Shown here: piece by piece, positions 35,682 to 41,900 of the stretch
Layout: each line of letters begins with the position of its first letter
Numbering within the stretch: position 1 is the stretch's first letter
NCBI GenBank assembly: GCA_028707535.1
Contig: JAQWAU010000005.1
Location: 1-64,000, forward strand
Direction of reading: 5' to 3'
Origin: Heliobacteriaceae bacterium
Lineage (GTDB): Bacteria; Bacillota; Desulfitobacteriia; Heliobacteriales; Heliobacteriaceae
DNA: 64,000 bases
The notes under the pieces: generated by a model
Told to the model about the DNA's origin: nothing
The model's input: the letters and a program-made list of their open reading frames with translations, nothing else
Database searches by the model: none
Program-made: the position numbers and the translations under genes

Positions 35682-35753
35682 TGGGATTCACCTCCATCAA
35701 TCTAAAATTCGGGGCGGGGAAACGATTTCCTGCGCCGCTTTAAATATAAAGAT

Positions 35754-35781
35754 TGACAACATGGGGTTTGGTAGTTAGGAT
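35754..35781 (+). promoter_or_regulatory. Sigma-A-type promoter for trp operon
   Basis: TTGACA-N16-TAGGAT. Confidence 0.65.
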
Positions 35782-35803
35782 AAAAGTAATTTAATAGGCT
35801 GTT

Positions 35804-35847
35804 GAGCTGAGTTGAGATGAGCGGAGTTTGAGTGGAGTCGAGCGGAG
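35804..35847 (+). promoter_or_regulatory. TRAP-like (G/U)AG repeat array in trpE leader
   Basis: GAGctGAGttGAGatGAGcgGAGtttGAGtgGAGtcGAGcgGAG: nine GAG triplets with 2,2,2,2,3,2,2,2 nt spacers. Confidence 0.82.
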
Positions 35848-35883
35848 AGTGGCGGTGCTTTTTGCGCCTTTTTTTGGCGGATA

Positions 35884-35917
35884 AAAACCGGCCCCCTTTT
35901 CGGTGGGCCGGTTTTTT
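35884..35917 (+). terminator. Leader terminator (attenuator) upstream of trpE
   Basis: AAAACCGGCCC...GGGCCGGTTTTTT. Confidence 0.85.
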
Positions 35918-35971
35918 GTCGTGCCGGAACGCCCGGACATTTCCTCACTGCCGCCGAAAGGACGGGGGAAC

Positions 35972-37438
35972 ATGACGACCGAAACAACCGGTGTAACCCG
36001 GGCGGAGTTTCAAAGGCTCAGCCGGGAATACCGGTACATACCCTTATGGGTTTCCTTTAATGCTGACCTGGAAACACCGGTCACTTTATTTCGCAAGTTG
36101 ACCGGGGAAGGGTGCGGCTATTTGCTGGAAAGCGTGGAACATGGCCGGGTATTAGGCCGTTATTCCTTTGCCGGGGCGGAGCCTTTGGCTTATTTTACCG
36201 GTAGCCTGCCGGGCGGACCGGCTGTCCCTGACCGGCCGTTGGCCGCTTTGCAGCAATGGCTGGCCGGGTTCCGGACGGCCCCGGTTGCCCGGCGGGCGGG
36301 GTTGCCTCCTTTTTACGGCGGGGCGGTCGGGTATTTTGCCTATGATTTAGTGCGGGCTTATGAAAAACTGCCCCGGCAAGCGGTGGATGATTACGGCCTG
36401 CCGGCGATGACCATGATGGTTACCCGGTATACTTTGCTGCTGGACCATTTGCGGCATACGGCTACATTGGTGTATTTGGCCGAGGCTGGGGATGAACAGG
36501 CTTACCAGGCCGCCCGGGATAAACTGTACCGGTGTCTGGCGAGGCTTAAAGGCCCGGATAACGGTCTTGGGGTGGGGAGGCCGGAACCGGAGGCCGGGAC
36601 CCGGGATGAACCGGTGACTTTTGACCGGGCCGGGTTTTGCCGGGCGGTAGAAAAATGCCGGGAATACATTGCCGCCGGGGAGGTTTTCCAGGTGGTTTTA
36701 TCCCAGCGGTTTTCTGTTCCCCTGCGGGCCCACCCTTTTGATGTCTACCGGGCGTTACGGTCTTTGAATCCTTCTCCGTACTTGTTTTATCTCAACCTGC
36801 CCGGGGTTTGCCTGGCCGGTGCTTCACCGGAAGCCTTGGTCCGGGTGAATGGCGGCCGGGTGGAGACTCATCCGATCGCCGGTACCCGCCCCCGGGGTGA
36901 AGACCCGGCTGAAGACCGGCTGTTGGCGGCCGAATTAGTTGATGACGATAAAGAGCGGGCAGAACACGTGATGCTGGTCGACCTGGGCCGGAACGATTTG
37001 GGCCGGGTCTGCCGCCCGGGGACGGTCAAGGTCGAACGGTTCATGGAAGTAGAATATTACTCCCACGTGATGCATTTAGTCAGCCAGGTGGCGGGGGAAC
37101 TGGCCCCCTCCTTTTCTGCCCTCGATGCTTTGGCCGGTGTGTTTCCGGCGGGTACTTTAAGTGGGGCGCCGAAGATCCGGGCAATGGAAATCATCGAAGA
37201 ACTGGAACCGGTCCGCCGGGGACCGTATGGCGGGGCCGTGGGCTATCTGGGTTTTGAGGGTAATCTGGATACCTGTATCACGATCCGGACGGTGGTGATG
37301 TGTCAGGGCCGGGCGGATATCCAGGTCGGGGCCGGGATTGTCGCCGATTCGGAGCCGGAGCGGGAATACCAGGAAACACTGAATAAGGCCCAGGCGCTTT
37401 TTACCGCTCTGGCCCGGGCCGAGGAGGGATTTGCTTGA
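35972..37438 (+). CDS. trpE: Anthranilate synthase component I
   Basis: Chorismate-binding motifs [60 protein letters not shown]. Confidence 0.95.
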
Positions 37439-38007
37439 TCCTGATGATTGATAATTATGATTCTTTTACCTATAACCTGGTTCAGTATTTTGCCGAATTG
37501 GGTGAAACCCTCCGGGTGGTCAGGAATGATTCCTTGCCGGTAAGTGAGTTGGCAGCCTTGGCCCCGGATTACCTGGTGCTTTCCCCGGGTCCCGGCACCC
37601 CGGACCGGGCCGGGGTTTGCCTGGATTTAATCCGCCATTTTGCCGGCAAAATTCCCGTACTTGGTGTCTGTCTGGGGCACCAGGCAATCGGGCAAGGATT
37701 CGGCGGCCGGGTGGTGCGGGCCAGCCGGTTGATGCACGGAAAAACATCTTTGATTTATCACGATAAAAAAACTATTTTCCGGGGTTTGCCCAATCCTTTT
37801 ACCGCTACCCGCTACCATTCGCTGCTTTTGGCCGAGACAGCCCTGCCCCCGTGTTTGGAGGTTTCGGCCCGGACGGCTTTAGGGGAAGTGATGGCGGTAC
37901 GGCATAAAGAATTTCCAGTGGAAGGAGTGCAGTTCCACCCCGAGTCCGTTTTAACGCCGGCCGGGAAAAAACTGCTGAAAAATTTTTTGGCCTTAGAGGT
38001 GAGCTGA
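37435..38007 (+). CDS. trpG: Anthranilate synthase component II (glutamine amidotransferase)
   Basis: [38 protein letters not shown]. Confidence 0.94.
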
Positions 38008-38008
38008 G

Positions 38009-39097
38009 ATGAGTTGTAGCCGGGAGATTGTCCGGGAGGGCCTGGCGGCCCTCTTGGCCGGGGAACGGTTGGGAGAAGAGCGGACGGAGGCGATTATGGA
38101 GATCGTCATGGAAGGTAAAGTGCCGTCTGCACAGTTGGCGGGGATTTTAGTCGCCCTGCGGCTGACTGGGGAAGGAGAAGAGGAGATTGCCGGGTTGGCC
38201 CGGGCAATGCGTTGCCGGGTCGGCCGGGAGCTGCAGCCGTTTATGCCGGCCGGGTTCGGCCGGTTGCAGGATCAGTTGGTGGATACCTGCGGCACCGGTG
38301 GTGACGGGGCGGGAACTTTTAACATCTCCACCGCCGCCGCCTTGGTTGTGGCGGCCGCCGGGGTACCGGTAGCCAAACACGGTAACCGGGCGGTTTCCGG
38401 GCGGGCCGGGTCGGCCGATGCGCTGGAAGCGTTGGGAGTTGTCGTCGACCAACCGCCAAAGGTGGCGTTTGCTTGTCTGGCCGCCACCGGTTTCGGGTTT
38501 TTTTACGCGCCACAGTGCCACCGGGCCATGGCCCATGCGGCACCGGCCCGGCGGGATTTGGGGGTGCCTACCGTGTTTAATCTGCTGGGACCTTTGACCA
38601 ACCCGGCCGGGGCCAAACGGCAATTGTTAGGGGTAAACCAGGCCGGCCGGTTAACGGTGATGGCCCGGGTACTGGCCCGTTTGGGTGCCGATAAGGCCTG
38701 GGTTGTGCACGGTCATGGCGGTTTGGATGAAATCAGCCTGACCGGTCCGACCCGGGTCGCCTGTCTGGAACAGGGTCAGGTGAGCAGTTTTGTGCTTGAC
38801 CCCCGGGATTTGGGGTTGGCTTATTGCCGGCCGGGTGATTTGGCTGGGGGCGACCGGGAGGTCAATGCCGGGATTATTGCCGGGGTGCTGCAGGGTGAAC
38901 GGGGTCCCCAACGGGACACGGTGGTGTTAAATGCCGCCGCCGCGCTTTATGTGGCCGGGCGGGTGGCCGACCTGCCGGTCGGAATGGCCGTGGCCCGGGA
39001 AGTCCTTGATTCCGGGCGGGCGAGGGAACTGTTGGGCCGGGTGCGGGAATTCACTTTAACGGCAGCTGCCGCCCCCGTTCAGGCAGGGGTCGGCTGA
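38009..39097 (+). CDS. trpD: Anthranilate phosphoribosyltransferase
   Basis: DTCGTGGDGAGTFNISTAAALVVAAAGVPVAKHGNRAVSGRAGSAD. Confidence 0.95.
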   Translation: MSCSREIVREGLAALLAGERLGEERTEAIMEIVMEGKVPSAQLAGILVALRLTGEGEEEIAGLARAMRCRVGRELQPFMPAGFGRLQDQLVDTCGTGGDGAGTFNISTAAALVVAAAGVPVAKHGNRAVSGRAGSADALEALGVVVDQPPKVAFACLAATGFGFFYAPQCHRAMAHAAPARRDLGVPTVFNLLGPLTNPAGAKRQLLGVNQAGRLTVMARVLARLGADKAWVVHGHGGLDEISLTGPTRVACLEQGQVSSFVLDPRDLGLAYCRPGDLAGGDREVNAGIIAGVLQGERGPQRDTVVLNAAAALYVAGRVADLPVGMAVAREVLDSGRARELLGRVREFTLTAAAAPVQAGVG

Positions 39098-39948
39098 TGG
39101 CGGCGCTCAACTGGGAACCGGCGGGGTTTCTCCGGACGATCCGGGAAGAAAAAGCCCAAATTGTCCGGGCGGCCCAAAGCCGGCAGCCTTTGGCCGGTTT
39201 GCAGGCCCAGGCGGCCGTTCTGCCCCCGGCCCGGGATTTAGCCGGGGCCTTGGCCCGGTCCGGTGATCCGGTCGTGAAGGTGCTGGCCGAAGTAAAACGG
39301 GCTTCCCCGGTAAAAGGTCCTTTGCGGCCCGGGGCGGCTGCCGGGGAATTGGCCCGGGCTTATGCGGCCGGAGGAGCGGCGGCCATTTCAGTATTAACCG
39401 ACCAAAAATATTTCGGGGGTAGGTTGGCGGATTTGACGGCGGTAAAAGCGGCGGTTAATCTGCCGGTGTTGCGTAAGGATTTTTTAATTTCTTCCTACCA
39501 GGTCTGGGAGGCCCGGGCTTATGGTGCTGACGGATGTTTGCTGATTGCCGGTTTGCTCGGGCCGGCAGAACTGACGGTGATGTGTCTGACTGCCTTGGCG
39601 GCTGGGGTGCAGCCATTGATCGAGGTGCACGGGGATGCGGAATTGCCCTGGGCCTTGCGGACAATTGCGCAGGGCAGGCAGGGATACCCGGCTTGGCGGC
39701 CGATCCTGGGATTTAACGCCCGGGATTTGGTCCGGCTCAAGGTCCGGCCGGAACAGGTGCGGGACCTTGCTGCCGCTCTGCCGCCGGACGTGGCCCCTGG
39801 GTTGGTGAAAGTAGCGGCCAGCGGGATTAAATCGGCGGCTGATGCGGCCAGGTTGGCAGCGGCCGGTTTTGATGCGGTACTGGTCGGGGAGGCCTTGGTT
39901 ACGGCTCCTGATCCGGCCAAAGCGGTCCGCTGCCTGCGGGGGGAATGA
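39097..39948 (+). CDS. trpC: Indole-3-glycerol phosphate synthase
   Basis: VLAEVKRASPVKGPL, LTDQKYFGG, VLRKDFLISSYQVWEARAYGAD. Confidence 0.94.
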   Translation: MAALNWEPAGFLRTIREEKAQIVRAAQSRQPLAGLQAQAAVLPPARDLAGALARSGDPVVKVLAEVKRASPVKGPLRPGAAAGELARAYAAGGAAAISVLTDQKYFGGRLADLTAVKAAVNLPVLRKDFLISSYQVWEARAYGADGCLLIAGLLGPAELTVMCLTALAAGVQPLIEVHGDAELPWALRTIAQGRQGYPAWRPILGFNARDLVRLKVRPEQVRDLAAALPPDVAPGLVKVAASGIKSAADAARLAAAGFDAVLVGEALVTAPDPAKAVRCLRGE

Positions 39949-39952
39949 AGTG

Positions 39953-40618
39953 ATGGCTGGTTATCCCCGGATAAAGATTTGTGGCATCCGCTCTGGCCGG
40001 GATGCCCAGGTGGCGGTTAATGCCGGAGCGCATGCCATCGCTTTTAACTTTGTGCCTGGGGCAAAGCGGTATATCGAGCCGGCGAAAGCCCGGGCAATTA
40101 TTCAAGCCCTGGGGCCTTTGGTCACCATCGCCGGCGTTTTTGCCGATGCCCCAAGGGCAGAGGTAGTCCGGATTGCCGGTGAATGTGGTTTGCAGGTACT
40201 CCAATTTCACGGCAATGAGTCGCCGGCTTATTGCCAGGGCTGGCCTTACCCGGTGATCAAGGCTTTTCGGTTTGGTTGCGGGGCCCCGGCTCAGGCCGGA
40301 ACGGCGGTGTTCAACACCTGGGACCAGTTGGTTTGCCGGGCCGGGGAGTACCTTGTAGCCGCCTTTTTAATCGATGCTTTTCACCCGGCAGTGGTGGGGG
40401 GAGCAGGCCGGACTTTTGATTGGACGCAAATCAGGACACCATTACCCCGGCCCCTTATTTTGGCCGGGGGGCTGCACCCCGGGAATGTCCGGGAAGCGAT
40501 TACCCAGGTTCATCCCTACGGCTTGGATGTTGCCACCGGGGTGGAAACCGGTGGGCAAAAAGACTGGGAAAAGGTGCGGGCCTTTATCGAGCAGGCCCGA
40601 TTTTCCGGATTATCTTGA
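39953..40618 (+). CDS. trpF: Phosphoribosylanthranilate isomerase
   Basis: KICGIRSGRDAQVAVNAGAHAIAFNFVPGAKRYI, LQFHGNE, LAGGLHPGNVREAI. Confidence 0.93.
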   Translation: MAGYPRIKICGIRSGRDAQVAVNAGAHAIAFNFVPGAKRYIEPAKARAIIQALGPLVTIAGVFADAPRAEVVRIAGECGLQVLQFHGNESPAYCQGWPYPVIKAFRFGCGAPAQAGTAVFNTWDQLVCRAGEYLVAAFLIDAFHPAVVGGAGRTFDWTQIRTPLPRPLILAGGLHPGNVREAITQVHPYGLDVATGVETGGQKDWEKVRAFIEQARFSGLS

Positions 40619-40796
40619 ACAGTATGTCGCCCTAGCCGCTTGTATTTTGCCGGGGTACTTTAAATGGTGGTCGAATATTGCTAGGAAGACGATTTTTGTG
40701 TTATATTGATATTTAAAGGTAGTATAGCTTGTTTGGTTGGTGTCGTAAAAATTCTCGTAGCATGGTAGAACGGCAGGAGGAAACCAGCTGCTGTTC

Positions 40797-40823
40797 AAAG
40801 TACTCCACCAAGGAGTACTTTTT
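40797..40823 (+). terminator. Terminator/attenuator-like hairpin before aroF
   Basis: AAAGTACTCC-accaa-GGAGTACTTT-TT. Confidence 0.85.
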
Positions 40824-40886
40824 ATCTTTTTGTTGTCTCGTTCGGTGTAGCGTTTCTTGGGGCAGAACACTTAAGGGGGGAAAGTT

Positions 40887-41900
40887 GTGATTGTGGTAAT
40901 GCACCGGGGGGCATCCGCCCCGGAGATTGATGCGGTTTGTCAACGTTTGAGTAACGCGGGTTTCACTTTGCATTTGTCCCAAGGCGTGGAACGCACAATT
41001 ATCGGTGCGGTTGGGGAGAAGTCCCGGGCAACGGTTTCTGGTCTGGAAGCTTTACCGGGGGTAGAGAAGGTTGTACCCATCCTGCAGCCCTATAAATTAG
41101 CCGGCAGGGACTTTCACCAGGAGGATACAGTTGTAAATCTCGGTAATGTGGCCATTGGTGGCAACCAGTGTCAGGTTTTTGCCGGGCCTTGTGCGGTGGA
41201 AAGCTGGGAGCAGCTACTGGAAGCGGCTTTAGTGGTAAAAGAATCCGGGGCGAATATTTTACGGGGTGGCGCCTTCAAACCCCGGAGTTCTCCGTATTCT
41301 TTTCAAGGCTTAGAAGAACAGGGGCTAAAATTGTTGGCCAAGGCCAGGGAGGCCACCGGTTTAAAGATTGTTACCGAAGTGCTGGATGCGGCCAACATCG
41401 AACGGATTGGTTATTACTCCGATATCCTGCAAGTAGGCGCCCGGAATATGCAAAACTTTTATCTACTGAGGGAGTTAGCTAAAGTGGACCGGCCGGTCCT
41501 GCTCAAACGCGGCATGGCGGCAACGGTTGAAGAATGGTTGATGGCGGCCGAATACCTGGTATCAGGCGGCAATGACCGGGTCATCTTATGTGAGCGCGGG
41601 ATCCGTACTTTTGAGACGGCTACCCGGAACACCTTAGACTTAAGCGCGATTCCGGTGGTTAAACAATTGAGTCACTTGCCGGTCATTGTCGATCCCAGCC
41701 ATGCCACCGGCAAATGGCAATTGGTCGGACCGCTGGCCAGGGCGGCGATTGCCGCGGGTGCCGATGGGGTGATGATTGAAGTACACCCACACCCGGCAAT
41801 GGCGTTGTGTGACGGGCCCCAGTCATTAACCCCCCAGAATTTCACTGCCCTGATGGCGGAATTGCGGGCAGTGGCCCGGGTGATGGGAAAACAACTATAA
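40887..41900 (+). CDS. aroF: 3-deoxy-7-phosphoheptulonate (DAHP) synthase, type Ibeta-like with N-terminal ferredoxin-like domain
   Basis: [46 protein letters not shown] start. Confidence 0.94.

Follow-up and report, generated by a model that had tools for sequence, protein, structure and literature searches.

A putative TRAP-dependent attenuator of the trpEGDCF operon in a heliobacterial genome and a candidate second TRAP site at trpD

The leader ahead of trpE in a 64-kb stretch of DNA, here called the window, very probably attenuates transcription of the trpEGDCF operon in a TRAP-dependent manner. This leader holds a row of nine GAG triplets which, judged by sequence and conservation, is almost certainly a docking strip for TRAP in anaerobic heliobacteria, and we infer that binding and termination at the leader depend on tryptophan. 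An attenuator of this kind is already known; the heliobacterial lineage was not met in the literature searched. A shorter array at trpD, discussed below, is the part that could be new.

Anatomy of the trpE leader and its operon

The features of the leader and of the operon are listed in Table 1. The nine GAG triplets start at positions 35804, 35809, 35814, 35819, 35824, 35830, 35835, 35840, and 35845, with location and spacers exactly as described in an earlier note on this DNA. A further GAG at 35847–35849 forms a tenth triplet that overlaps the ninth, and the UAG to which the note had drawn attention at 35795 is present and lies off register. The promoter proposed there was found, with TTGACA at 35753–35758 and TAGGAT at 35776–35781, although the spacer between them is 17 nt and not 16. 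Likewise, the GC hairpin and U-tract described before trpE are present, but their limits had to be shifted slightly, to 35883–35917, with the hairpin at approximately 35883–35911 and a run of six U at 35912–35917. The trpE start at 35972 agreed with the note. Between the triplets and the terminator hairpin, the window leader has a G-rich stretch. A small hairpin, GGTGC-TTTTT-GCGCC followed by seven U, was also observed at 35854–35875, upstream of the main terminator, and scored as terminator-like; it may be an extra terminator or a pause site peculiar to the genome of the window.

A T-box leader or another known RNA element before trpE was considered and rejected, since an Rfam scan of the 64-kb window called two tRNAs only, with no T-box or other leader element. 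A Trp-rich leader peptide was not seen by eye in the leader. On both points the earlier note had come to the same view.

For comparison with chance, one strand of the window was shuffled 300 times with a first-order Markov model, and the shuffles were scanned for chains of triplets at 2–3 nt spacing. The longest shuffled chain held 2–5 triplets (5 in 2 of the 300 shuffles), compared with the 9 observed. A five-triplet phased pattern had a single match in the 2.09-Mb assembly, the trpE leader array. Genome-wide statements for the genome of the window derive from pattern and family searches.

Table 1. Predicted and annotated features of the trp leader and operon, in window coordinates
Feature	Position	Strand	Basis or remark
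Sigma-70-type promoter of the trp operon, TTGACA-N17-TAGGAT	35753–35781	+	Predicted; arrays of relatives have similar promoters upstream
Candidate TRAP-binding array, nine GAG triplets	35804–35847	+	Spacers 2,2,2,2,3,2,2,2; conserved with mtrB
Predicted antiterminator	35851–35893	+	GGCGGU 35851–35856 with ACC-GCC in 35887–35893; inner hairpin CGCC 35865–35868 / GGCG 35876–35879
Intrinsic terminator, AAAAACCGGCCC...GGGCCGGUUUUUU	35883–35917	+	Homologous hairpin in 9/9 leaders
trpE, anthranilate synthase component I	35972–37438	+	TIGR00564 over cut-off
trpG, glutamine amidotransferase	37435–38007	+	TIGR00566 over cut-off
Candidate second TRAP site, GAGgtGAGctGAGatGAGttgTAG	37996–38019	+	Across the trpD Shine-Dalgarno and ATG
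trpD, anthranilate phosphoribosyltransferase	38009–39097	+	TIGR01245 over cut-off
trpC, indole-3-glycerol phosphate synthase	39097–39948	+	Best NCBIfam matches are TrpC models, E to 1.6e-65
trpF, phosphoribosylanthranilate isomerase	39926–40618	+	NCBIfam matches, E to 1.4e-60; start approximate

At 40618–40887, trpF gives way directly to aroF, with no trpBA between them. The eight relatives from the same family carry trpB and trpA a few kb downstream of trpE. No trpB, trpA, or trpP was found in the assembly of the window, which is 87.6% complete, so these genes may have been lost or left unassembled. A bchL-type protochlorophyllide reductase scoring over the cut-off was not found in this genome either. 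The host may lack phototrophy, unlike the phototrophs for which its family is otherwise known, or its bchL-type cluster may not have been assembled.

MtrB and the conservation of the array

The search for mtrB in the rest of the genome, which the earlier note had suggested, located an intact gene on another contig than the window (G000:C32:21726-21923; PF02081, E = 1e-38), downstream of a coaD-like gene. Its 77-aa product scored 135.6 bits against the NCBIfam equivalog "trp RNA-binding attenuation protein MtrB", for which the cut-off is 117. The protein aligned without gaps over 66 residues with the solved Bacillus-type TRAP chain 1c9s, and the alignment includes the stretches LTRGKDTKFHH, KLDKGEV, and QFTEHTSAIKIRG, within which the Trp- and RNA-contacting residues fall. 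For anti-TRAP (rtpA), the family gave only weak, sub-cut-off matches inside frames of ~380–390 aa, and these candidates were rejected. Some Bacilli are also without anti-TRAP (PMC11255114).

Conservation was followed in a comparison set of nine genomes, the genome of the window (G000) and eight relatives (G001–G008) of one family, which we infer to be the Heliobacteriaceae. All nine carry mtrB, and a homologous terminator follows the array in all nine leaders. The trpE leaders of G000 to G007 hold 9, 9, 11, 6, 6, 7, 11, and 6 tight triplets, respectively, and the window's array ranks with the most regular of the family. In G008, mtrB is present but the array is broken. Across the close relatives, in which the phasing had been proposed for comparison, triplets and terminator are kept together in 8/8 and the phasing is tight in 7/8. 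A scan of the 400 bases ahead of the trpE match at each locus found tight chains of 4–11 triplets in all eight mtrB-positive loci covered. The 19 mtrB-negative loci, from class-mates of the window's genome, had chains of 1–2 triplets and no array in any of them. Arrays also precede trpE-like genes in the mtrB-positive class genomes G016, G028, G037, and G059, and in two Firmicutes MAGs (L018 and L019) found through trpE similarity. The presence of mtrB, together with triplets and terminator conserved alongside it, supports the claim that the trp operon of this anaerobic lineage is regulated by TRAP. Outside Bacillus, TRAP is no rarity: of 299 genomes sampled from the phylum, 153 carry mtrB. 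To our knowledge, TRAP has been studied almost only in Bacillus.

Predicted folding and a proposed mechanism

Folding was modeled for a state in which transcription is paused at the terminator loop and the triplets are either free or blocked. In all nine genomes, pairing was predicted between the segment just 3′ of the last triplet and the 5′ terminator arm, with mean values of 0.70–0.89. With the triplets blocked, the predicted pairing dropped to 0.41–0.66 in eight genomes and stayed at 0.83 in G003; in the window, blocking barely lowered it, from 0.70 to 0.66. Compared with shuffles, the isolated antiterminator was better in seven of the nine (z –2.7 to –5.5), with –1.7 for G005 and –0.8 for the window, the least significant of the nine. 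The GGCG, CGCC, and GGCG segments at 35851, 35865, and 35876, singled out in the earlier note as a potential alternative structure, all take part in the predicted fold. The exclusivity of antiterminator and terminator that it had proposed to look for was predicted in 9/9 genomes but is weak in the window. Here the antiterminator abuts the last triplet with no overlap, and the model leaves exclusion between TRAP and antiterminator plausible and poorly supported by energy alone. When antiterminator arms were swapped to test for co-evolution, the cognate combination did not consistently come out ahead from genus to genus, so covariation is not claimed.

A hairpin at the trpE Shine-Dalgarno was predicted in the relatives G002, G004, G006, G007, and G008. 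Blocking the triplets lowered the predicted unpaired fraction of the Shine-Dalgarno from 0.50 to 0.00 in G007 and from 0.52 to 0.02 in G008. This closure with blocked triplets corresponds to the translation switch at trpE in B. subtilis, which there forms a second tier of control and is not needed for attenuation itself. Such a switch, clear in some relatives, was rejected for the window, where the unpaired fraction changed only from 0.26 to 0.22 and no significant hairpin was predicted. Direct pairing of the triplets with the anti-Shine-Dalgarno strand was also rejected as a general rule, being not clearly above shuffles.

In B. subtilis, TRAP sites consist of GAG/UAG repeats 2–3 nt apart, placed before a competing antiterminator and terminator (PMC3913778). 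By the mechanism we propose for the window, the MtrB ring encoded on contig C32 would wrap the emerging leader RNA at its nine GAG triplets when tryptophan is ample. The wrapped triplets would hinder the antiterminator that begins just past the last of them, the terminator would form, and transcription would end upstream of trpE. When tryptophan is low, TRAP would be off the leader, the G-rich segment past the triplets would pair with the 5′ terminator arm, and transcription would continue into the operon. As a possible addition in this family, a short TRAP site over the trpD ribosome-binding site could repress trpD translation on transcripts that escape termination.

TRAP might instead bind the leader and act mainly by sequestering the Shine-Dalgarno of trpE on readthrough transcripts, or through more direct termination, and not by excluding the antiterminator. 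The weak antiterminator of the window is consistent with this, as are the Shine-Dalgarno hairpins of the relatives named above, fully closed in G007 and G008, and the report that TRAP of B. subtilis can bring about termination without the attenuator hairpin (PMC3913778). We consider it unlikely, however, as the window's own Shine-Dalgarno hardly responds and a strong terminator is kept in 9/9 leaders. The array could also be a relic, with TRAP control out of use in this organism or another factor governing the leader. With no trpBA in the operon and trpB, trpA, and trpP missing from the assembly, selection could be relaxed; yet the incompleteness of that assembly, the intact mtrB, the regularity of the array, and the lack of any T-box or other Rfam leader element in the window make a relic highly improbable.

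The trpD start, further candidate targets, and known systems

Besides the putative attenuator before trpE, each of the nine family genomes has a shorter array (GAGgtGAGnnGAGatGAG) that spans the trpD Shine-Dalgarno and start codon. It takes the form GAG-gt-GAG-nn-GAG-ATG-AG, in which nn varies, with an AAG as the first triplet in G001 and a TTG start codon in G003 as exceptions. The GAG right before the start codon and the AG right after it are invariant in the nine genomes. Nothing like this form was found at the starts of trpE, trpG, trpC, aroF, tyrA, or aroA. Within ~13 kb around each of the nine operons, on both strands, runs of at least four tight triplets are confined to two places, the trpE leader and the trpD start. 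Each of the nine genomes has one copy of the 17-base pattern AGGTGAGNNKAGNTGAG at trpD, and in ~30 Mb total there is one extra match. The extra match lies in G006 (L168 1501–1517), before a 235-aa methyltransferase-like ORF. Counted as tight triplets, the trpD array has 5 in the window (7 with spacers up to 10) and 3–6 in the other family genomes. At least seven triplets are reported as enough for stable binding of B. subtilis TRAP (PMC4027176), and the 3–6 at trpD fall below this number. None of 18 trpD starts from mtrB-lacking genomes had more than two tight triplets, and in mtrB-positive genomes from beyond the family the count at trpD was 0–3, so the site looks particular to the family.

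From its sequence and position, the trpD array may be an additional TRAP site, internal to the operon and acting on translation. The chances appear evenly balanced that heliobacteria use TRAP twice per operon, by attenuation before trpE and by blocking trpD translation through a short site at the trpG–trpD junction. A slightly less than even chance goes to the array being no TRAP site but simply a strong ribosome-binding site inherited from a common ancestor. The Shine-Dalgarno GAGGTGAG by itself supplies two of the array's triplets, and a further one spans ATG-AG, which fits such an origin, as do the low triplet number and the restriction to the family. Against this stand the invariance of the bases flanking the start codon while the nn spacer varies, the lack of a similar form at any other operon start tested, the near confinement of the 17-base pattern to one trpD copy per genome, and the low counts at trpD where mtrB is lacking. 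A literature search, which did not reach comparative studies behind subscriptions or the original work on repeat number and on trpG, returned no internal trp-operon TRAP site (~4–6 tight triplets), no TRAP site at trpD, and no TRAP in heliobacteria.

The transporter TrpP is encoded in 6/9 family genomes, each time behind an array (5 or 7 tight triplets) that is followed by a terminator-like hairpin, so its control looks transcriptional. At the loci L131–L136 and L138, trpP-type genes of six heliobacterial genomes and G028 were seen behind 5–9 tight triplets and a terminator-like hairpin. In G016, from a related family, six triplets with spacers of 2–3 cover the start region of a 456-aa TrpB-like gene (L145 1297–1325, minus strand of the locus); this array is a candidate translational TRAP site.

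These arrays make RNA targets of TRAP readable in the heliobacterial family and in some neighbors. Their natural variation in array length, antiterminator geometry, and target set offers a way to test the requirements of a TRAP site. Should the trpD array be bound, short arrays would be functional inside an operon, and one ring protein would set two pathway steps separately. TrpG-type subunits can also serve folate synthesis, and two-point control by TRAP, if true, would shut the dedicated steps more tightly than trpE and trpG.

The tRNA-Trp T-box leaders of other Gram-positive trp operons likewise place terminator-based control ahead of trp genes, but their sensor is a tRNA, whereas here it would be a protein ring, and no T-box was called in the window. 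The trpEDCFBA leader of B. subtilis is closer, sharing triplets 2–3 nt apart, a terminator before trpE with a competing antiterminator (a predicted one in the window), and an orthologous MtrB. It differs in having eleven GAG/UAG triplets, whereas the window has nine tight triplets, all GAG, an antiterminator that abuts the array, trpG inside the operon, no anti-TRAP found, and a candidate extra site at trpD. B. subtilis TRAP also blocks the translation of trpG, trpP, and ycbK by binding their initiation regions (PMC11255114), and the triplets there overlap the Shine-Dalgarno and start codon, as they do at trpD here. Those genes, however, lie outside the trp operon, and B. subtilis sites are described as having 9–11 repeats (PMC4347634), compared with 3–6 tight triplets at trpD. 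In contrast to the translational control reported for B. subtilis trpP, the control of heliobacterial trpP looks like attenuation of transcription.
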